64,000 nt of DNA from Rhodanobacteraceae bacterium (GTDB lineage: Bacteria > Pseudomonadota > Gammaproteobacteria > Xanthomonadales > Rhodanobacteraceae), in NCBI GenBank assembly GCA_004299705.1, contig SCQS01000008.1:1-64000 (forward strand). Reading direction: 5' to 3'. Every line of letters starts with the position of its first letter. The stretch's first letter is position 1. Under the pieces are notes generated by a model. The model did not search any database. It was given only the letters and a program-made list of their open reading frames with translations, and was not told the origin of the DNA. Below, piece after piece: positions 6,874 to 51,762 of the stretch. Made by a program: the position numbers and the translations under genes.

Positions 6874-7078
6874 GGGCGCCTCTCGGGCGTTCGGTGATTT
6901 CTGCGGTTTCATCCGCGGAATGCAGGTTCATAATTGCACTATGCGGCTGGCAAAAAGTTTGACCTGGATCATGCCTGTCCGAGCCATTTTTCGTTTTCGC
7001 GGAGTGGATCACACTTCAACCGGCTACCGCGAGCCCGGCCGCCGGATGCCTGCGATGCATTGACCGATCCTGGGCGAT

Positions 7079-7561
7079 TCAGTGGCGCGGGGAAGCCGTA
7101 TCCGGCGCCAGCCTTGCCAGCGGTTTGCCGGACGCATCCAGCAGCACGAGGCTGTCGCCGTCGCGCTCGATCCTGGCCGCATCCCGCAGCGCCGCGAACA
7201 CGCCGTGTTCCACCTGCATCGCGCCGGCAGGCTGCATGCAGGCCATCTTGGTGGACATGACCTGACCGAACACGGCACCGCCATCGGCCGATTGTTGCCA
7301 GGTCGCGCCGAACGAATTGCAGCCGGCCTTGCCGGATGCCCGGCCAGCGCGCAGGCGCAGGATCGCATGCACGCCGGCCGGCACCGGCCGACCGGCGACC
7401 TCCACGAAACGCCACGCGGTGGCATCGAGGTTCGACGTGGCCATATCGCTGGCCGACGCAGCGGAGGAAATTGGCGGCGCAGGCTCCGGATCGCGCGCCG
7501 CGTGCACGGCACAGCCGGTCATCGCCAACGCAAACATCAACACCATCGGAGTCGTGCGCAT
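7079..7561 (-). CDS. META-domain lipoprotein (HslJ-like)
   Basis: A 160-residue lipoprotein with lipobox LAMTGC near residue 17, a Pro/Ser-rich linker, and one META domain from about residue 45: TAWRFVEVAGRPVP, then GKAGCNSFGATWQ and the late STKMACMQPAGAMQVE motif with its Cys. Family members such as HslJ are outer-membrane-associated proteins linked to heat shock or novobiocin resistance; the molecular role is not settled. It stands alone, with no operon partner. Confidence 0.8.
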   Translation of the reverse strand: MRTTPMVLMFALAMTGCAVHAARDPEPAPPISSAASASDMATSNLDATAWRFVEVAGRPVPAGVHAILRLRAGRASGKAGCNSFGATWQQSADGGAVFGQVMSTKMACMQPAGAMQVEHGVFAALRDAARIERDGDSLVLLDASGKPLARLAPDTASPRH

Positions 7562-7715
7562 GTCAGATCTCGCTGCAGCGGCGCTTCCCAGACTACGCCG
7601 GGAACGCTGAATCAGCCTTGTGCAGCGTCTGTGCGAGTGGGTAGATGACATGAAGCAGGGTGGCAAGAACGGCGGATGAGGCGTCCGACGTAGATTCAGA
7701 AACTTGTCGCCAAAT

Positions 7716-10725: not shown

Positions 10726-11685
10726 CTAATCCACGTACAACGAACTGACCGACTCGCCATACGCCATCCTGCGCACGGTTTCGGCCAGCAACTGTGCCAC
10801 GGACAACTGGCGGATCTTGCCGCACGCGGCGCCTTCAGCGCTCAGCGGGATGGTGTCGGTCACCACCAGTTCGTCCATCTGCGATTGTTCGATGTTGCGC
10901 ACCGCTGGCCCCGACAGCACGGCGTGGGTGCAGTACGCGACCACTTCTTTCGCGCCGCGCTCCTTCAGCGCCTTCGCGGCCGCGCACAAGGTGCCGGCCG
11001 TATCCACGATGTCGTCCACCAGCACGCAAGTCTTGCCGACCACGTCGCCGATGATGTTCATCACCGTCGCTTCGTTCGGGCGCGGGCGGCGCTTGTCGAT
11101 GATCGCGAGGTCGGCGTCATCCAGCCGCTTCGCCACCGCGCGCGCGCGCACCACGCCGCCGACATCCGGGCTGACCACCGTCACGCCCTCGGTGCCGTGC
11201 TTGCGCCAGATGTCGGCCAGCAGCACCGGTGAGGCGTACACATTGTCCAGCGGGATGTTGAAGAAACCCTGGATCTGGTCGGCGTGGATGTCCACCGTCA
11301 GCACCCGGTCGGTGCCGACCGCGTCGATCAACTGCGCCGCGACTTTCGCGGTGATCGGCACCCGCGCCGCGCGCAGCCGGCGATCCTGCCGCGCGTAGCC
11401 GAAGTACGGGATCACCGCCGTGACGCTGGACGCCGAGGCGCGCTTCAGCGCGTCCACCAGCACCAGCAGTTCCATCAAGTTTTCGGCCGACGGCGCGCAG
11501 GTCGACTGCATCACGAACACGTCCTGGTTGCGGACGTTCTCGTCGATCTCCACCTGCACTTCGCCATCGGAAAACTTGCCGACCACCGCCTTGCCCAGTG
11601 GTACGCCAAGCGTGTGCGCGACATCCTCAGCCAGCTTGCGATTGGCATTGCCCGAGAACAGCATCAAGTTGGATGTGTTGTGCAT
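10726..11685 (-). CDS. prs: Ribose-phosphate pyrophosphokinase
   Basis: A 319-residue PRPP synthetase making PRPP from ribose 5-phosphate and ATP for nucleotide, His, Trp and NAD synthesis. Seen are the N-terminal [17 protein letters not shown], the flexible-loop [10 protein letters not shown], and the PRPP-binding signature [14 protein letters not shown]. The ATG at 11685 gives the standard N-terminus; the longer open frame upstream runs back through tRNA-Gln and is not coding. It lies directly downstream of tRNA-Gln and upstream of rplY. Confidence 0.97.
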
Positions 11686-11714: not shown

Positions 11715-11789
11715 TGGCTGGGGCGGCAGGATTCGAACCTGCGAATGCCGGGATCAAAACCCGGTGCCTTACCACTTGGCGACGCCCCA
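11715..11789 (-). tRNA. tRNA-Gln(TTG)
   Basis: A 75-nt tRNA on the minus strand: acceptor TGGGGCG/CGCCCCA, anticodon TTG in GGTTTTGATCC, T-arm GGTTCGAATCC and encoded CCA. It sits just upstream of prs. Confidence 0.96.
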
Positions 11790-12130
11790 CCTTGTAGTGA
11801 AAAATGGGGCGTCCGGCCGCCATTTTCACGAAGCTCGTCCGAAGTGAATTCGAACGAGCTTCCGCTTCGCGGCGGCACATCCCTGTGCCGCGATCTCGTT
11901 CTCACGAAACCGTCCCGGCATCCTGCCGCGCCCTGATGGCAAACGGCCGCGGCCAGCGTTTTGAAACAACCAAGCACGCGGGGCCGGACCCGGCCTCGCG
12001 TGCTGAAAAGCCGCCTATTGTCGTGGCTGGCGCAATTCGTGTCAATTCAGGCGGTTGGGTCGCGCCTATCCCCTCTCCCCCAAGCAGCCTTACCGCTTGG
12101 GGGAGAGGGGGAAAAAACCCGCGCAAGCCT
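11790..12130. other. Spacer where ispE is normally found; contains a C-type hairpin
   Basis: 341 bp between lolB and tRNA-Gln with no recognisable gene. In E. coli and Xanthomonas, ispE lies between lolB and prs. No kinase-like peptide is seen in any frame. A 16-bp perfect inverted repeat, CCCCTCTCCCCCAAGC at 12070-12085 against 12095-12110, belongs to family C. The flanking run of A is on the wrong side for a leftward terminator. Promoter elements for tRNA-Gln and prs should lie in this stretch. Confidence 0.75.
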
Positions 12131-12748
12131 TTACGGTATCGCCGTGTTCCACTGCTCGATCAGCACCCGCACCGTGTACGGATCGCGGCTGGCGTAGACC
12201 TTGCGCGGCAACGGCGGATTACGCTCGGCGTACCAGTCGCGGTAATCGACGTGCCAGCCGTCCTGGTCCAGCGTCGCCGGCAGGCCGTTGGCGCCGAAGG
12301 TGAGGATGGCCGGGCGACCCGGCGCGCGCAGGCCACGCACCCACCAGGCGAGGTCGGCGACCGGGACGTCCCAGCCGAATTCCTCGTTCAGCACGTCGGC
12401 CGCATTGCGGCCGGCCAGCGGCTGCCTGCCGGCGCCGGTCAGCACCGCGCCGTCCGGCCCGCCTTGCAACTCCACGCTCTTGCCGGTGATCGGCGCGCGC
12501 AGGGTGAACTGGTATTGCTGGCCGTTTTGTTGCCAGTTCAAGCTGCCGCTGCCACCGTGATGCCCATCCGACGCGGCAAAGCGCCCTTCGATGCCCCAAT
12601 CGTGCTGCGCCCCCAACACCTGTTCGCGTGCGGCCTGCGCCGCAAGCTGCCTGGTGGTGCCGGGTTTGCGCACCTGCACCGGGGCACAGGCGGCCAGCAG
12701 CATGCCCGCGAGCGCCGTGATCGATGCCAACGCAAGCAGGCGCCTCAT
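12131..12748 (-). CDS. lolB: Outer membrane lipoprotein insertion protein LolB
   Basis: A 205-residue lipoprotein with lipobox LLAACAP near residue 20. The LolB fold follows: WGIEGRFAASD, GSGSLNWQQ, the middle GPDGAVLTG, and the tryptophan-rich WWVRGLRAPG. LolB accepts lipoproteins from LolA and inserts them in the outer membrane. The start at 12748 overlaps the stop of the upstream TPR lipoprotein gene (ATGA), so the two are co-translated. Its partner gene ispE is missing downstream. Confidence 0.95.
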   Translation of the reverse strand: MRRLLALASITALAGMLLAACAPVQVRKPGTTRQLAAQAAREQVLGAQHDWGIEGRFAASDGHHGGSGSLNWQQNGQQYQFTLRAPITGKSVELQGGPDGAVLTGAGRQPLAGRNAADVLNEEFGWDVPVADLAWWVRGLRAPGRPAILTFGANGLPATLDQDGWHVDYRDWYAERNPPLPRKVYASRDPYTVRVLIEQWNTAIP

Positions 12749-14469
12749 GGATTGAGTTTCCGCTCGGCCTTCAGCAACGCCTGATTGTGCGGATCGAGCT
12801 TGCGCACCTTGGCGAAAACTTCCTGCGCATGTTGGTGTTGACCGAGCTTCCACAGCACTTCTCCCAGGTGCACGCCGATGTCGGGATCCTGCTGCCGGCC
12901 CCAGGCACGCCTCAGATAGGCCTCGGCCTCGTCGAGGTTGCCAAGCCGGTACTGCAGCCAGCCCCACGAATCCATGATCGCGGCCGTGTCGGGCTTGGCC
13001 GCCAACGCCTTGCGCAGCAGCTTGGCCGCCTCGGGCAGGTCGCGGTCGGCGTCGGCCAGCGTGAAGCCGAGCGCGTTCATCGCATCGACATTGTCGGGGT
13101 TCTGCGCCAGCACCTTGCGGAAATCCGCGAGTGCCGCATCGGTGTTGCCGGCGTTGGCTTCCTCGATGCCGCGGTCGTAGATCAAGACCGGGTCGCCGGG
13201 CAGCGCCTGCAGGCCACGGTCGTACGCCGCGATCGCCTTGGCGTGCTGGCCGTCCTGCGAATACATCTGCGCATCCAGTTCGTACGCGGTGCGCAAGCTG
13301 TCGGGGTCGTCGGCGTAATCCTGCTGCAACTGCGTGGCCAGCGCGTGCGCCTGCGCCGACTTTCCGGCCTTGTCCAGCAACACCGCGCTGCGCACCTGTG
13401 CCTCGAAACCATGCTGCCCATCGGGATCGACCCGGCCGTACCAGGTGAGCGCCTGGTCGTCGTGATGCAGCAACTCGGCGAGCTGGCCCAACAGGAACGC
13501 GTTGTCGTCGCGCTGCCGCGCGGGTGCGCGCTGCAGCTCGGCATAGAGACGGCGAAGCGCGCCTGCGTTCCTGGCACGCGCCGCGATCCCCACGCGCGCC
13601 GACCAGGTGGCCGAGGTCTGCGGTCCACGCGCCAACACCTGCAGGGCCTGGTCGTACTTGCCTGCCTCGCCCAGCAAACTCGCGTAGCCGAGGCGCAGGT
13701 CGGGATTGCGCGGGTGCGCGGCCACGCCCTTGGCGTAGAGCGCTTGCGCGCCGGCACGATCGCCGTTTTCGAGTTCCAGGCTCGCCGCCCAGCGGATACT
13801 GTCGGCGCCATCGAAACGCTTGACGGCCGCGTCGGCAAGCTGGCGCGCGAACGCGTGCCGGCCCAGGTGTTCACCCAGCTGGCTCAATACCACCCACACA
13901 CCCTCGTCGGCGGGCAGGCGATCGGGTTTGGCGACATCTTCCAACACCCGCCCCGCCAACGCTGAATCGCGTGCAGTCAGCAACGCGGCGGCAAAGGTTT
14001 TCCAGTCCTCCGCATTGCCGGATGCAAGCAGCAGGTCGAACTGGTGTTCCGCGTCCGCACGGTCGCCCTGCAACATCGCGAGTTGCCCGCGCGCCAATTC
14101 GAGATCATGCGGACTCGCGCCCAGCGCCTGCCAACGGCCCAGCAATCGCTGCGCCGCGTCGGCATTGCGCGTCATCAGGGCCAGTTGCACCGCGCGTTTG
14201 GCGATCGCCGGATCGCTCGAAATCTGCGCGGCCTCGGCGTAATCGGTCGTCGCCTTGGCGGTGTCGTTGTCCTGCAACGCGAACTCGGCGGCGATCAACA
14301 GGGCCGAGGCCTTGCCATTCGCGCTGCCGGCCGGCAAGTCGATCCGCGCGAGCGGTTGCTGGCTGGCCGCTTGCGCGCTGCGCGCGGGCACCTGTGCGCA
14401 GCCGGCCGCCAGCAACGCGGCGGCGAGGACCAGCCCGAACGCGCTAAAATGAAGACAGGAAGTCTTCAT
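12745..14469 (-). CDS. TPR-repeat outer membrane lipoprotein
   Basis: A 574-residue lipoprotein with lipobox LLAAGC and more than ten TPR-like helical repeats along its length; the best are near the C-terminus (ALADFRKVLAQNPDNVDAMN, then WGWLQYRLGNLDEAEAYLRR). TPR lipoproteins upstream of lolB are common in gammaproteobacteria and are thought to act in envelope assembly; the exact role is not known. The ATG at 14469 gives a clean signal peptide. The far longer open frame upstream overlaps hemA and prfA in antisense and is not coding. It is divergent from hemA across 153 bp that should hold both promoters. Confidence 0.88.
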   Translation of the reverse strand: MKTSCLHFSAFGLVLAAALLAAGCAQVPARSAQAASQQPLARIDLPAGSANGKASALLIAAEFALQDNDTAKATTDYAEAAQISSDPAIAKRAVQLALMTRNADAAQRLLGRWQALGASPHDLELARGQLAMLQGDRADAEHQFDLLLASGNAEDWKTFAAALLTARDSALAGRVLEDVAKPDRLPADEGVWVVLSQLGEHLGRHAFARQLADAAVKRFDGADSIRWAASLELENGDRAGAQALYAKGVAAHPRNPDLRLGYASLLGEAGKYDQALQVLARGPQTSATWSARVGIAARARNAGALRRLYAELQRAPARQRDDNAFLLGQLAELLHHDDQALTWYGRVDPDGQHGFEAQVRSAVLLDKAGKSAQAHALATQLQQDYADDPDSLRTAYELDAQMYSQDGQHAKAIAAYDRGLQALPGDPVLIYDRGIEEANAGNTDAALADFRKVLAQNPDNVDAMNALGFTLADADRDLPEAAKLLRKALAAKPDTAAIMDSWGWLQYRLGNLDEAEAYLRRAWGRQQDPDIGVHLGEVLWKLGQHQHAQEVFAKVRKLDPHNQALLKAERKLNP

Positions 14470-32608: not shown

Positions 32609-33304
32609 TCAACCCAATCCGCCCAACAACGGCACGAAGCTGACCGCTTCCAGATCCTCGCGATGCCACGCATCACCCCCGCGCCGAAAACGCGTGAGCC
32701 GCTGCGCACCCGCCGGCCCCAGCGGCGCGACCAGCACGCCGCCGTCGCGCAATTGTTCGCACAGCGCGCGCGGCACCGATTCACCCGCGGCGGTCAAGAT
32801 GATCGCGTCGAACGGCGCCTCGGCGGGCCAGCCGATGTTGCCGTCGTCGTGGCGCGAGCGGATGTTCTCCATTTTCATGCTGCGGAACAGGCGCCGCGCC
32901 TTGCGCAGCAGTTCCTCGATGCGTTCGACCGTGTAAACAGTCCCCACCAGCCCCGACAGCACCGCCGCCTGGTAACCCGAGCCGGTACCGATCTCCAGCA
33001 CGCGCTCCGGCACGGCGTGTTCGATCAAGAGTTCGGTCATCCTGGCTACCACCCACGGCTGCGAGATGGTCTGGCCCAGCCCGATCGGCAGCGCGGTGTT
33101 CTCGTAGGCACGCGCGGCCAGCGCTTCGTCGATGAACAGATGCCGCGGCGTGGTGCGGATCACGTCCAGCACGCGCGGGTCGCCGATGTCTTCCGCGCGC
33201 AACGTAGCGACCAGGCGGTCGCGCGCACGCTGCGAAGTCATCCCGTGCCCGCGCGCGGATACGGCGGCGGCGCCGAACAGGCCGCTCCCGGACAATGTGT
33301 TCAT
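32609..33304 (-). CDS. pcm: Protein-L-isoaspartate O-methyltransferase
   Basis: A 231-residue repair enzyme that methylates isoaspartyl residues with SAM. Motifs: [19 protein letters not shown], the SAM-binding [16 protein letters not shown], and DAIILTAAG. The start at 33304 overlaps the surE stop (ATGA); a Met at residue 22 is an alternative. The surE-pcm pairing is conserved in many bacteria. Confidence 0.95.
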
Positions 33305-34095
33305 GCAGCCTGCTCCCCCTGCAGTTCCGCGCTCAACCCGCCGATCCATTTCGATACGTTTTCCAGCGCCTGGAAGCGCGTGAGGTCGACATGGATCGGC
33401 GTCACCGACACGAAACCGCGGCGCACCGCATCGAAATCGGTACCGGGTCCGGCGTCGTCGGCATCGCCCGCGGCGCCGATCCACCACACCGTGCGTCCGC
33501 GCGGATCGCGCTGCGCGATGCAGGGCGAAGCGCGATGGCGACTGCCCAGGCGCGTCACCTCGAAGCCCTGGATTTCCGGCCACGCACGATCCGGCACGTT
33601 GACGTTGAGAATGGTATCGGCCGGCAGCGGATCGACCACGAGACGTTTGATCAGCAGCAGCGCCGCGCGCGCGGCGGAATCGAAATGATGGCCTTGTCCG
33701 TCGTGATGCTCGCCCGGCCCCGCCAGCGACACCGCGATCGCGGGAAGCCCGAGGAAACGACCTTCCATCGCCGCCGAGACGGTGCCGGAATAAATCACGT
33801 CGTCGCCGAGGTTGGCCGAATTGTTGATCCCGGAGATCACGATGTCGGGCTCGTCGTCGAGCAGGCCCGACAACGCCAGGTGCACGCAATCGGTTGGCGT
33901 GCCGGCCACGCGATAGCGGCCGTCTTCCAGGTGCACGACCCGCACCGGCTGGTCGAGGGTCAACGAATTGCTGGCGCCGGAACGATCGCGGTCGGGCGCA
34001 ACCACCGTCACGTCCCCCAGTTCGGCCAAGTGTCCGGCGAGCACACGGATGCCTGGTGCATCCACGCCGTCGTCATTGCTCAGCAGCACCCGCAT
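33301..34095 (-). CDS. surE: 5'/3'-nucleotidase SurE
   Basis: A 264-residue survival protein that dephosphorylates nucleoside monophosphates and short polyphosphate. The metal-binding N-terminus [15 protein letters not shown] carries Asp8 and Asp9; [12 protein letters not shown] and [20 protein letters not shown] complete the active site. The ATG at 34095 is preferred over the extended frame beginning at 34137. In this lineage truD normally lies directly upstream; here ftsB does. Confidence 0.96.
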
Positions 34096-34185
34096 CGCCG
34101 ATTCCAATCCCGAAACAGAAAACCGTGCTTCACGCACAAGCCACGAGTTTAGCCGATCGCGCGCAGTGCCGACCCATGCAACGCG
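34096..34185. other. 90-bp junction where ispD, ispF and truD are normally found
   Basis: In E. coli and Xanthomonas the order is ftsB-ispD-ispF-truD-surE. Here only 90 bp separate the ftsB stop from the surE start and no remnant of the three genes can be seen. No palindromic repeat is present in the junction. Confidence 0.9.
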
Positions 34186-34527
34186 TCAATGACTGGATGA
34201 CGCCGACGCAGGCGAAGTCGACGCAGGCGCCGCGGCACTGGCCGATCCGGCCGGCGTATTGACCACTTGGTAGAACACCTCGCCGGGCTTGATCAGTCCA
34301 AGCTGCGAACGCGCACGCGCCTCGACCGCGTCCTGTCCATGCTTCAGGTCTTCCACGTCCGCATGCAGCGCGTCGTTGCGCTGCTTCAACTTGGCGTTCT
34401 GCGCCTGTTGCTCGGCCACACGCGCGCGGATCGCGCGCAAGTCGCGCATGCCGCCGTCGCCAACCCACAGCTTGATCTGCAGGCCGATCAACAGGGCGAT
34501 CAGGATCAGGGCAATCCAGCGAAGCAT
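34186..34527 (-). CDS. ftsB: Cell division protein FtsB
   Basis: A 113-residue bitopic protein with one membrane helix (WIALILIALLIGLQIKLW), a leucine-zipper-like coiled coil at about 30-70 (RVAEQQAQNAKLKQRNDALH), and the conserved ARSQLGLIKPGEVFYQVV. FtsB, with FtsL and FtsQ, activates septal wall synthesis. The Ala/Ser/Pro tail after residue 92 is low complexity. It follows eno, as in most gammaproteobacteria. Confidence 0.95.
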   Translation of the reverse strand: MLRWIALILIALLIGLQIKLWVGDGGMRDLRAIRARVAEQQAQNAKLKQRNDALHADVEDLKHGQDAVEARARSQLGLIKPGEVFYQVVNTPAGSASAAAPASTSPASASSSH

Positions 34528-34575: not shown

Positions 34576-34664
34576 GACACGGATTTACGCGGATAAACGC
34601 GGATCAAATCCGGACTGGGCACACCTTTGCAAAAAATCCGTGTTCATCCGCGTTGATCCGCGTC
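34576..34664. repeat. Palindromic repeat, family A
   Basis: Left arm GACACGGATTTACGCGGATA and right arm ending TCATCCGCGTTGATCCGCGTC form a long imperfect hairpin between eno and ftsB (174-bp spacer), which are otherwise usually close together. Confidence 0.85.
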
Positions 34665-34701: not shown

Positions 34702-36078
<1,377 letters not shown>

Positions 36079-36084
<6 letters not shown>

Positions 36085-36900
36085 AAGCGGGGACTGCTTG
36101 GCCACCGCGTCCAGTTTCATCAAATCTTCCAGCAACGCCTCCATCTTGCCCAGCGGCCACGCGTTCGGGCCATCGGACAGCGCCTTGTCCGGATCGGGAT
36201 GCGTTTCCATGAATACGCCCGCGACGCCCACCGCGACGGCTGCGCGCGCCAGCACCGGCACGAATTCGCGCTGGCCACCGGACTTGGTGCCCTGCCCGCC
36301 CGGCAGCTGCACCGAGTGCGTGGCGTCGAACACCACCGGGCAATTCGTCTCGCGCATCACCGCCAGCGAGCGCATGTCGGAAACGAGGTTGTTGTAGCCG
36401 AAGCTGGCGCCGCGCTCGCAGACGAGGATCCGCTCGTTGCCGACCGCGCGCGCCTTCTCCACGACATTTTTCATATCCCACGGCGACAGGAACTGGCCCT
36501 TCTTGATGTTGACCGGCTTGCCTTGCTGAGCGACCTTCTGGATGAAATCGGTCTGCCGGCACAGAAACGCCGGCGTCTGCAGCACGTCCACGACTTCCGC
36601 GACTTCATCGAAGGGCGTGTATTCGTGCACGTCGGTGAGCACCGGCACGCCGACCTGTTTCTTCACTTCGCCGAGGATGCGCAGGCCCTCTTCCATCCCG
36701 AGCCCGCGGAAACTTTTGCCGGATGTACGGTTGGCCTTGTCGAAGCTGGACTTGAAGATGAAGTTGACGCCGAGTCTGCCAGTGATCTCCTTGAGCGTGC
36801 CTGCGGTATCGATCTGCAGTTGTTCGGATTCGACCACGCAGGGACCCGCGATCAGGAATAAAGGTTGGTCGAGGCCGACTTCGAAGCCGCACAAATTCAT
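36079..36900 (-). CDS. kdsA: 3-deoxy-8-phosphooctulonate synthase (KDO-8-P synthase)
   Basis: A 273-residue aldolase condensing PEP with arabinose 5-phosphate for the LPS inner core. Motifs: [47 protein letters not shown] and the later [20 protein letters not shown]. The stop TAG is formed by the family E repeat, so the protein ends KQSPLL. The start lies six bases after GAGGGG of a family C repeat, which may serve as its ribosome binding site. Confidence 0.97.
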
Positions 36901-43380: not shown

Positions 43381-44811
43381 ATGAAATCATTTCCCCTCGC
43401 CAGCCTGGTTCTGACGCTCGCGACTGCGGCCTTCACGCTGCCGGCCTCCGCGCAATTGCTGAGCCCGAACGCTCCGCCCACCACCAGCGCCCAGCCCACG
43501 TCCCTGCTCGGCGCACCGGCGCCGGCTTCCAACGGCGTACAGCCGCTGGACCGCATCATCGCGGTAGTCAACGACGGCGTGATCATGCAAAGCCAGCTCG
43601 ACCAGACCATGGCGACTGTCGCACACCAGATCGAGTCTTCCGGCGGCAAGTTGCCGCCACAGGGCGTGCTTGAGAAACAGGTTCTGCAGCGCCTGATCCT
43701 CAACCAGTTGCTGGTGCAGAAGGCCCACGACAACGGCGTGCGGGTTTCCGACGACCAGGTCGATGCCGCGGTCGCCAACATCGCCCAGCAGAACAAGATG
43801 TCGGTGACGCAGATGCAGGCCGCGATGCAGCAGCAAGGCATCGACTACGCCTCGTTCCGGCAGCAACTGCGCGACCAGTTGCTGGTGCAGGCCGTGCAGC
43901 AGCAGGTGATGCAGTCGTCCTCGCAGGTGTCCGATGCCGAAATCGACAACCTCATCGCCAGCCCGGCGTTCAAGCAGGGCGAAGTGCAGCTCGGGCGCAT
44001 CCTGGTCGGCTTGCCCGAAGGCGCCGACGCCAAGCAGATCGCCGCCGCGCAGGCCAAGGCCAACCAGATCGAGGGCGAGCTGAAAGCCGGCAAGAGCTTC
44101 GCTTCGCTGGCGGTCAGCGACTCCAGCGCGCCCGAAGCGCTGGACGGCGGCAACCTCGGCTGGCGACGCGTGGACGAGTTGCCGCCCGCGGTGCAGCAGA
44201 TCGTCAACTCGCTGCAGCCGGGCCAGGTCACCCAGCCGCTGCGCGATGCATCCGGTTTCACCATCCTGAAACTGGAAGCCAAGCGCACGCCGGGCACCAA
44301 GCAGATCGTCACCGAGTACCACGCGCTGCACTTGATGATCAAACCCAACGCGGTGCTCACCCAACAGGGCGCCAAGGACAAGATCGAGAAGCTCTACCAC
44401 GAGATCGTGGACGGCCACGCCAGCTTCCAGACGCTGGCCAAGCGCGACTCGGACGACCCGACCACTGCCAACAACGGCGGCGACATGGGCTGGTTCACCG
44501 TCGACGAATGGGGCCGCGAGGTCGGCAAGCTGGTCGCCAGCATGAAGCCCGGCCAGGTCAGCCAGCCGTTCGAGAGCCCGGATGGCTCGTGGCACATCAT
44601 CAAATTGCTTGGCACCCGCCAGGCCGACAAGACCAAGGACATCGAACGCGCGCAGGCGCGCCAGGCCATCGCCGAACGCAAGGGCCGGCAAGCCTACGAG
44701 CAGTTTCTGCGCGACATGGAATCCTCGGCCTACATCAGCATTCGCGACCCCGCGCTGGCCGATGCCGATCCGTACGCGACGAACGGAAGCGGCAGCGGTT
44801 CCGCGCAATGA
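43381..44811 (+). CDS. surA: Periplasmic chaperone and peptidyl-prolyl isomerase SurA
   Basis: A 476-residue outer membrane protein chaperone. Signal peptide to about LPASAQ; an N-terminal SurA domain (LDRIIAVVNDGVIMQSQLDQ); two parvulin domains, the first with EVQLGRILVGLPEGA...GGNLGWRRVDELP, the second with YHALHLMIKPN...GGDMGWFTVDEWG; and a C-terminal helix (QAYEQFLRDMESSAYISI). It escorts LptD and porins to the Bam machine. Its stop overlaps the pdxA start (ATGA). Confidence 0.96.
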   Translation: MKSFPLASLVLTLATAAFTLPASAQLLSPNAPPTTSAQPTSLLGAPAPASNGVQPLDRIIAVVNDGVIMQSQLDQTMATVAHQIESSGGKLPPQGVLEKQVLQRLILNQLLVQKAHDNGVRVSDDQVDAAVANIAQQNKMSVTQMQAAMQQQGIDYASFRQQLRDQLLVQAVQQQVMQSSSQVSDAEIDNLIASPAFKQGEVQLGRILVGLPEGADAKQIAAAQAKANQIEGELKAGKSFASLAVSDSSAPEALDGGNLGWRRVDELPPAVQQIVNSLQPGQVTQPLRDASGFTILKLEAKRTPGTKQIVTEYHALHLMIKPNAVLTQQGAKDKIEKLYHEIVDGHASFQTLAKRDSDDPTTANNGGDMGWFTVDEWGREVGKLVASMKPGQVSQPFESPDGSWHIIKLLGTRQADKTKDIERAQARQAIAERKGRQAYEQFLRDMESSAYISIRDPALADADPYATNGSGSGSAQ

Positions 44812-45836
44812 GCGTCGGGCCGGCCCCGAACCGGCCCACCCGACTTCCGCGCCTCGCCGTCACCAGCGGTGATCCCGCGGGGGTCGGCCCGGAGCTGGTC
44901 GCGCGCCTGGCCGCGTCGCCGCTCGCTGCGGATCTGATCGCGGTCAGCGACGCCGGGCTGCTGCGGCGCGCCGCGGGACGCTGCGGCATCACGCTGAAAC
45001 TCGAACCCGACGACGACCAGCCGCGCAACCTGCGTGCGGCAGGCAGCCTGCGGGTGCGCGAAGTGCCGCTGCGCGCCGAAGAAACGCCCGGCCAGGTCGA
45101 TCCGCGCAACGCCTTCCATGTCTTGAATACGCTCGCGCAAGCCGCGGACGGTTGCATCGACGGCACCTTCGATGGCGTGGTCACCGCGCCAGTGCAAAAG
45201 TCCGTGATCAACGATGCGGGCGAACATTTCACCGGCCACACCGAGCTGTTCGCGCAACGCGCGGGTTGCGACGTGGTGATGCTGCTGGCCTCCGACGATT
45301 TGCGCGTGGCGCTGGCCACCACCCACATGCCGCTCAAGGACGTGCCGGCCGCGATCACCCGTGAATCGCTGACACGCACCCTGCGCATCGTGCACACGGA
45401 ACTGATCGCGAAATTCGGCATCGCCCAACCGCGCATCGCGGTGCTGGGCCTGAATCCGCACGCGGGCGAAGGCGGGCACCTGGGCCGTGAGGAAATCGAC
45501 ACGATCATCCCGGCATTGGATGCGCTGTGCGGCGAAGGCATGCAACTGCTCGGCCCGCTGCCGGCCGACACCGCATTCGTGCCGGCCATGCGCGCACGCT
45601 ACGACGCGGTGCTCGCGATGTACCACGACCAGGCACTGCCGGTGCTGAAATCGGAAGCCTTCGACCGCACCGTCAACATCACGCTGGGCCTGCCGTTCAT
45701 CCGCACTTCGGTCGACCACGGCACCGCGCTCGACCTCGCCGGCAGCGGCCGCGCCGATCCGTCCAGCATGTTCGCGGCAGCGGAGATGGCGTTGCGACTC
45801 GCTACCCGAAAAGCCAAAAGCCTTGACACGGATTGA
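44808..45836 (+). CDS. pdxA: 4-hydroxythreonine-4-phosphate dehydrogenase, tail read from a repeat
   Basis: A 342-residue enzyme of pyridoxal 5'-phosphate synthesis. Motifs: LAVTSGDPAGVGPEL, VVTAPVQKSVINDAG, FTGHTELFA, GLNPHAGEGGHLGREE, AMYHDQALPVLK and TVNITLGLPFIRTSVDHGTA with the metal and substrate residues. The final residues LDTD and the TGA stop come from the family A repeat that begins at 45823; the conserved protein ends just before. It is co-translated with surA. Confidence 0.96.
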   Translation: MSVGPAPNRPTRLPRLAVTSGDPAGVGPELVARLAASPLAADLIAVSDAGLLRRAAGRCGITLKLEPDDDQPRNLRAAGSLRVREVPLRAEETPGQVDPRNAFHVLNTLAQAADGCIDGTFDGVVTAPVQKSVINDAGEHFTGHTELFAQRAGCDVVMLLASDDLRVALATTHMPLKDVPAAITRESLTRTLRIVHTELIAKFGIAQPRIAVLGLNPHAGEGGHLGREEIDTIIPALDALCGEGMQLLGPLPADTAFVPAMRARYDAVLAMYHDQALPVLKSEAFDRTVNITLGLPFIRTSVDHGTALDLAGSGRADPSSMFAAAEMALRLATRKAKSLDTD

Positions 45837-45943
45837 CGCGGATAACAGCGGATAAAGCAAAGAGCGAAAATCCGACTGTAGAAAAACAGGCAAAAGCGGA
45901 TAAAGAGAGCAGCTTGGGCTTTATCTGATTTGATCCGTGTCAA
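45823..45943. repeat. Palindromic repeat, family A (long copy)
   Basis: Ends TTGACACGGATT (45823-45834) and the reverse complement of TTGACACGGATC (45932-45943), with extra GCGGATAA boxes inside. It contains the pdxA stop codon and separates pdxA from rsmA. Confidence 0.85.
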
Positions 45944-45979
45944 AACGCTTTGCTTTTGCTGCCCCCGCTACCGGTTCCC

Positions 45980-51684: not shown

Positions 51685-51762
51685 TGACGCGGATCAACGC
51701 GGATCAATTCGGATAAAAACTAAATTGGCTCTATCCGCTCTTATCCGCGTTGATCCGCGTCA
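51685..51762. repeat. Palindromic repeat, family A, between the two metH genes
   Basis: 20-bp perfect arms, TGACGCGGATCAACGCGGAT at 51685-51704 and its reverse complement at 51743-51762, around a 38-bp centre. It occupies most of the 135-bp gap between the two metH parts and would fold as a strong hairpin in their mRNA. Confidence 0.9.

Follow-up and report, generated by a model that had tools for sequence, protein, structure and literature searches.

The ftsB–surE junction

How does a bacterium make isoprenoids when ispD and ispF, genes of the MEP pathway, are missing from the place that they occupy in its relatives? The question is raised by a Rhodanobacteraceae genome (GCA_004299705.1, the host genome) in which only 90 bp (34096-34185) separate ftsB from surE. 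Coordinates refer to the window, the whole 64-kb stretch of DNA that was analysed. An earlier note on this DNA had reported the gap, described the flanking eno, ftsB, surE and pcm genes as intact and in order, and listed ispD, ispF and truD as missing. The gap is as described, with ftsB at 34186-34527 and surE starting at 34095. All four flanking genes score above their NCBIfam equivalog cut-offs, and PyrG in the window does so as well.

34096..34185, no strand: ftsB–surE junction, the site of ispD, ispF, truD and smr in relatives (locus comparison)
34186..34527, minus strand: ftsB (NCBIfam equivalog cut-off passed)
33301..34095, minus strand: surE (NCBIfam equivalog cut-off passed)
32609..33313, minus strand: pcm (NCBIfam equivalog cut-off passed)
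34702..36000, minus strand: eno (NCBIfam equivalog cut-off passed)
36079..36900, minus strand: kdsA (NCBIfam equivalog cut-off passed)
34146..34158, minus strand: motif GATCGGCTAAACT (sequence comparison)

No match to IspD, IspF, TruD or Smr was found between ftsB and surE in the window. The complete order seen in genome G148 is kdsA-eno-ftsB-ispD-ispF-truD-smr-surE-pcm-yqaA, with smr on the opposite strand, and genomes G200 and G192 have the same order over their retrieved stretches. The genes absent at the host junction are four (ispD, ispF, truD and smr). The earlier list of three was correct as far as it went but missed smr.

Ten of the 13 other genomes of the host genus that carry HMG-CoA reductase (HMGR) show the same junction; the gap measures 70-117 bp in nine of them and 314 bp in G008. 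The locus reaches a contig edge in G006, and G011 and G013 have no SurE match. Genomes G014 and G015, each a single contig, both carry the junction, so it is not an assembly error as the earlier note had allowed. The ftsB and surE genes lie on separate contigs in the IspF-bearing congeners G003 and G007, where the locus is already split or enlarged. One contig of each holds ftsB-ispD-ispF and another holds smr-surE (L132 and L139 in G007; L133 and L140 in G003). The motif GATCGGCTAAACT also lies upstream of surE in G007 and G003, which still have smr, and judged from its sequence it is perhaps a -10-like part of surE's own promoter that was spared by the deletion.

An intergenic element based on ACGCGGAT...CGCGGAT is dispersed over the window, mostly in inverted pairs, at 163-229, 34577-34663, 45826-45853 and 51687-51760. 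The pattern has 13 matches in the window against 0.54 expected. One copy lies between eno and ftsB, and one lies behind pdxA (inverted repeat 45809-45957).

The second MEP-related site in the window is the ispE slot, which the earlier note had called empty. That description is accurate because the 341-bp gap between lolB and tRNA-Gln is too short for ispE. Neither IspD nor IspE was found in its usual slot in the host. The pdxA gene is intact, and its loss together with the MEP pathway was rejected. The DXP-dependent route to vitamin B6 appears from the gene content to be kept, and an intact pdxA therefore implies a need for a source of DXP.

11790..12130, no strand: empty ispE slot between lolB and tRNA-Gln/prs (gap size)
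12131..12967, minus strand: lolB, start codon uncertain (gene identification)
11715-11789: tRNA-Gln
10726..11682, minus strand: prs (gene identification)
44808..45836, plus strand: pdxA, intact (gene identification)

MEP and mevalonate genes in the host genome

The host genome comprises 3.62 Mb in 78 contigs and is 99.99% complete, with the window on contig C68. Genome-wide searches for IspF, Dxr, IspH and TruD found none of the four. The same searches were positive in 9 (IspF), 10 (Dxr), 7 (TruD) and 10 (IspH) of 14 controls, with E. coli among the positives in all four.

HMGR is present on contig C16 (TIGR00532, 416.7 bits against a cut-off of 259.95), and mevalonate kinase is the fused C-terminal part of the same protein (TIGR00549, 231.6 against 163.05 bits). 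The fusion is 757 residues long in a single frame (L002 1704-3977, minus strand). A GHMP kinase at the phosphomevalonate kinase position (L002:3981-4991) is a candidate that falls below both family cut-offs (TIGR01220, 82.7 against 165.7 bits; TIGR00549, 85 against 163.05 bits). Diphosphomevalonate decarboxylase lies on the same contig (TIGR01240, 287.2 against 171.35 bits), which is 9.9 kb long in the draft genome and also encodes squalene-hopene cyclase, an HpnG-like protein (below cut-off), HpnA and a type-1 IPP isomerase. The cluster of near relatives extends to a squalene-synthase-like protein (L003 and L014; below cut-off) and that of L014 further to FPP synthase, HpnH and an HpnB-like protein. 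A scan for HMG-CoA synthase beside the fusion, using a motif over loci up to L102, gave only two matches, both in Bacillota (the Streptococcus entericus and Enterococcus moraviensis loci). Dxs is present in the host in a shortened form.

The earlier note had suggested that the MEP pathway was lost and replaced by the mevalonate route, and had named a genome-wide gene search as the check. The absence of ispF, dxr and ispH and the finding of HMGR, mevalonate kinase and diphosphomevalonate decarboxylase in a hopanoid/mevalonate cluster support the suggestion. The loss is not complete, since dxs is still present, although shortened.

A gap made by faulty assembly, or MEP genes lying in unassembled parts of the genome, would also account for these absences. 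The host genome is in 78 pieces, and seven family genomes that have IspH and no HMGR miss IspF, showing that gaps can hide this gene. Such an artefact is nevertheless scarcely credible, given that three separate MEP enzymes are absent from the host and that G014 and G015 have the same junction and lack IspF and IspH. Both single-contig genomes carry HMGR as well.

Distribution across the family

The family sample consisted of 233 genomes, with IspF in 194, HMGR in 44 and TruD in 207. IspF occurred without HMGR in 182 genomes, both were present in 12, HMGR occurred without IspF in 32, and 7 had neither. The 32 are 14 of the 16 genomes of the host genus, all 16 of group g7, G035 and G198. The 12 dual genomes are G039, G134 and ten from group g22, which holds R. 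lindaniclasticus and R. thiooxydans (coordinates match). Among the 32 HMGR-only genomes, IspH was found only in G082, which has 4% contamination; the other 31 lack it. All seven genomes with neither IspF nor HMGR have IspH and six have a full Dxs, with none in G214. Genomes with neither pathway were accordingly rejected as a class, and the seven were taken as MEP genomes with gaps. One member of the host genus is 'Lysobacterales bacterium 66-474': its locus L014 belongs to G233, and the Dxs coordinates of G233 match those of G001.

The earlier note had grouped the loss of truD with that of ispD and ispF. TruD is absent from all 16 host-genus genomes, including G003 and G007, which keep ispD-ispF, and it is kept in the mevalonate-only genomes of g7 (16 of 16), G035 and G198. 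These patterns reject a loss of truD as a mere by-product of the ispD-ispF deletion. Its loss was a separate event, because IspF-bearing congeners lack it and other mevalonate-only lineages keep it.

Several genomes have single features of their own. The truD match of the dual genome G134 (L144) is down to 45 residues, and its ispD and ispF matches are near full-length. G125 is also without TruD. G198 has no ispF, and its IspD frame is still open (L137, about 6962-7642, minus strand). The stretch AAGRGTRMGKDRPKQY of G200 reads TAGQVVPLGSDLPPTR in the G198 IspD, with a conserved N-terminal motif lost, and G198 shows a pathway in the course of decay.

A shortened loop in Dxs

Dxs was sought in 63 of the 233 genomes: all 44 HMGR carriers, the 7 genomes lacking both markers, G003, G007 and ten MEP-only controls. 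The Dxs domain match was full in 30 and split in 30, the first part ending at 184-203 and the second starting at 218-232 of 274 positions. The remaining three (G005, G011 and G214) had no real Dxs; their weak matches were taken as other thiamine-dependent enzymes. All 30 split matches come from genomes with HMGR and without IspF, and none of the 30 full matches does. The full matches belong to 24 genomes with IspF and to six gap genomes, classed as MEP because IspH is present and HMGR absent. G005 and G011 are mevalonate-only genomes without Dxs.

Loop length was defined as the number of residues between two fixed landmarks in the Dxs proteins. It is exactly 51 in 32 of 32 proteins from MEP or dual genomes, a narrow sample with 30 proteins from one family, and 10-38 in 38 of 38 proteins from mevalonate-only genomes. 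The loop has 23 residues in the host genus, 10-12, 18 or 19 in g7, 22-23 in a clade of six metagenome bins, 26 in G251, 31 in G198, 33 in G035 and 38 in G238, and its endpoints differ among lineages.

The host protein passes the equivalog cut-off for Dxs (TIGR00204, 823.6 against 465.95 bits), and the six loop-less proteins checked are all well over the dxs cut-off outside the shortened loop. Against E. coli 2o1s, about residues 205-236 are missing, and the alignment of the host protein to the truncated P. aeruginosa and K. pneumoniae constructs (8a29, 8a8y) is unbroken. The active-site network of E. coli DXS comprises H49, R99, H299, D427 and H431 (PMC12633525). Four of these five residues are identical in the host, and R99 is replaced by Lys, the residue found in nearly all aligned Dxs rows, full-loop ones included. 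Among 268 columns kept in the Dxs of MEP and dual genomes, 17 differ in at least two loop-less lineages. The most widely changed column lies near the loop in sequence. MEP or dual rows have Leu there in 30 of 31 cases and Phe in the other, whereas 30 of 38 loop-less rows carry R, E, A, Q, K, V or G; Leu is kept in 8 of the 16 g7 rows. Our guess from the alignment is that this column marks a contact lost with the loop.

Descent of dxs and of the fusion

A quick tree of 69 Dxs rows was computed with the loop left out. The loop-less Dxs of the host genus is sister to the full Dxs of G003 and G007, that of G035 is sister to that of G039, and the six metagenome bins form their own clade. Loop state requires at least 7 changes on this tree. 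Four independent contrasts lie on well-supported branches, and their sign test (p = 0.125) is not significant alone. A single clade for the 30 family loop-less rows was rejected (p-AU = 3e-51) for a group that was defined by pathway, yet tested after the tree was seen.

A small gene, HNH-like by eye, adjoins dxs in the loop-less genomes G000, G014, G015, G069, G074, G079, G035 and G198. It also lies beside the full-loop dxs of G007, G200, G148 and G192. G002 shares it in part, and it was not found in the retrieved stretches of G008 and G003. A second dxs neighbour, chloride-channel-like by eye, is common to loop-less and full-loop members of the host genus. Because the loop-less proteins pair with full-loop relatives on the tree and their genes have a neighbour in common, the sequences indicate that the native dxs is trimmed in place.

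The HMGR–mevalonate kinase fusion is in one frame in 85 of 88 loci. Its hosts are Gammaproteobacteria, two Actinomycetota records and bins labelled Calditrichia and Rhodospirillales. The midpoint-rooted fusion tree has three family clades, namely the host genus, most g22 rows, and g7 with G039 and two g22 genomes; the Actinomycetota, Halomonadaceae and Marinobacter fusions are placed elsewhere. The three separate family clades suggest that the fusion was acquired more than once.

The occurrence of the fusion in groups as distant as Actinomycetota, Halomonadaceae, Marinobacter and Rhodanobacter could mean that one loop-less dxs spread horizontally with the mevalonate cluster. This is highly unlikely. 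The dxs neighbour genes are common to loop-less and full-loop genomes, loop-less rows group with their full-loop relatives while one clade is rejected, the endpoints differ, and dual genomes combine the fusion with a full Dxs. A single horizontal loop-less dxs was rejected for the family lineages; the rejection does not extend to the long branches G238 and G251.

Prediction of IspF from the Dxs loop

The coupling between loop and pathway was also followed from the fusion. Through 48 of 70 fusion loci, 47 genomes were reached, of which 8 have a full Dxs, 9 a split Dxs and 30 none. The prediction of IspF by loop state was written down before the IspF search. It held: IspF was found in 8 of 8 full-Dxs genomes, six of which overlap with the family set by coordinates, and in 0 of 9 split-Dxs genomes, at least one of which overlaps (G233 = G001). 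Beyond the family set, the full-Dxs genomes of Litchfieldella and Marinobacter are new, as are up to eight split genomes; six of the latter make up one clade, which the Dxs tree places away from the family. IspF was detected in 1 of the 30 genomes without Dxs, as a partial match in G244.

The 30 of 47 fusion-bearing genomes without a real Dxs include Wenzhouxiangella G235, G237 and G246. Since G005 and G011 lack Dxs as well, the enzyme is dispensable in some of these bacteria.

Probable replacement of the pathway and possible roles of the loop

These results make it very probable that the MEP pathway was swapped for the mevalonate pathway while Dxs was kept and its loop shortened. The order of events would be as follows. 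The lineage would have gained the mevalonate cluster with the fused HMG-CoA reductase–mevalonate kinase, and the MEP enzymes would have been lost. Removal of ispD, ispF, truD and smr at the locus would have left the motif upstream of surE, perhaps not in one step because the IspF-bearing congeners are already without truD. Dxs stayed in place, probably as the source of DXP for vitamins B6 (PdxA/PdxJ) and B1 (ThiG). DXP is known to feed vitamins B1 and B6 too (PMC13082120), and the shortened Dxs probably makes it for this purpose. Freed from the MEP pathway, Dxs would then have lost the loop near its active site. In the other mevalonate-only lineages examined that have Dxs, this loop is shortened as well, to other endpoints.

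Two explanations for why the loop would be dispensable without the MEP pathway are about equally likely. The first is relaxed constraint only: the loop would give a small general benefit in speed, fold or folding, and its loss would be tolerated when DXP serves vitamins. This is a real possibility that we lean against. Engineered removal lowers kcat about 1.5-fold in E. coli (PMC13082120) and costs little in P. aeruginosa (PMC10504544), and some mevalonate-only Dxs sit on long branches (0.39 for G198 versus 0.039 for G200). Truncation of the M. tuberculosis enzyme, however, raises its activity 2-3 times and its stability by 7.3 degrees (PMC9068908), so the loop does not help catalysis in general. 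Simple relaxation also fits poorly with a loop fixed at 51 residues in every MEP or dual protein and shortened in every mevalonate-only Dxs examined, and with the high dxs scores of the rest of the six loop-less proteins checked.

The second explanation gives the loop an MEP-specific task in control or docking, for instance feedback by IPP/DMAPP, binding of a partner (Dxr, for example) or marking of the enzyme for turnover, which would be useless or harmful when DXP is made only for vitamins. We put it just short of an even chance. The coupling of loop to MEP has no exception among genomes having Dxs, the Leu column is changed in most loop-less rows as if a contact were lost, and the greater activity and lower degradation of the loop-less M. 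tuberculosis enzyme (PMC9068908) fit a restraining or turnover part. Against this, the available text of PMC10504544, PMC13082120 and PMC9068908 gives no loop role, partner or effector, the Leu–loop contact is itself guessed from sequence and half of the g7 rows keep Leu, and loss of the loop slightly slows the E. coli and P. aeruginosa enzymes (PMC13082120, PMC10504544). A general form of this second explanation has a shade less than that chance: the disordered DXS loop may be an MEP-dedicated accessory that is not for making DXP and is discarded at each MEP-to-mevalonate swap that keeps Dxs. If so, loop length would mark a DXS as feeding isoprenoids or vitamins only.

The family displays all stages of replacement (MEP only, both, mevalonate only) and amounts to an experiment of nature on DXP synthase, a drug target that controls entry to the MEP pathway. 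Repeated shortening solely where the MEP pathway is gone makes the role of the loop directly testable. An annotated dxs gene does not mean that the MEP pathway is present, and such bacteria are predicted to be insensitive to MEP-pathway drugs such as fosmidomycin.

Comparison with known systems

Mevalonate use in place of MEP is known in bacteria: of 4,249 species, 12.03% have the mevalonate pathway and 2.42% both (PMC13001223). The bacteria of that survey resemble the present ones in lacking MEP enzymes, in often having mevalonate genes in operons and in mixed use within a genus. The words Rhodanobacter, Dyella and Xanthomonad are absent from its main text. To that survey the present data add the shortened Dxs and, within a single family, a series from MEP-only through dual to mevalonate-only genomes. 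The mevalonate pathway and squalene synthase are described as specific to Wenzhouxiangella versus Marinicella, and the available text places Wenzhouxiangella in Xanthomonadales (PMC7691419). It has the same HMGR–kinase fusion as the host but, unlike the host, the three Wenzhouxiangella/Wenzhouxiangellaceae genomes reached (G235, G237 and G246) show no real Dxs. Among the titles and abstract beginnings listed for non-subscription papers, none was found to connect the DXPS loop with use of mevalonate or to report the HMGR–kinase fusion.

The host Dxs resembles a catalogued DXS subfamily, NCBIfam PRK12315 (NF008968), whose 582 positions make it shorter than canonical DXS. Five of six loop-less proteins align to it in one stretch; three of three full ones and the loop-less G238 do not. 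The host (517.3) narrowly and G069 (510.9) barely exceed its cut-off of 510, and G035, G198, G238 and G251 fall below. On the tree, the family rows come out as native Dxs.

The same loop has been cut by structural groups for crystallisation, with small effects, at residues 198-240 in E. coli (PMC13082120), 207-245 in P. aeruginosa (PMC10504544) and 190-234 in M. tuberculosis (PMC9068908), and one of these sources calls it poorly conserved (PMC10504544). Reported activities after truncation go both ways, being 1.5-fold lower, similar and 2-3 times higher, respectively. The gap in the host Dxs (about 205-236) falls inside the engineered E. coli cut. Unlike the engineered cuts, the shortening seen here arose in nature, happened repeatedly and goes together with loss of the MEP pathway.
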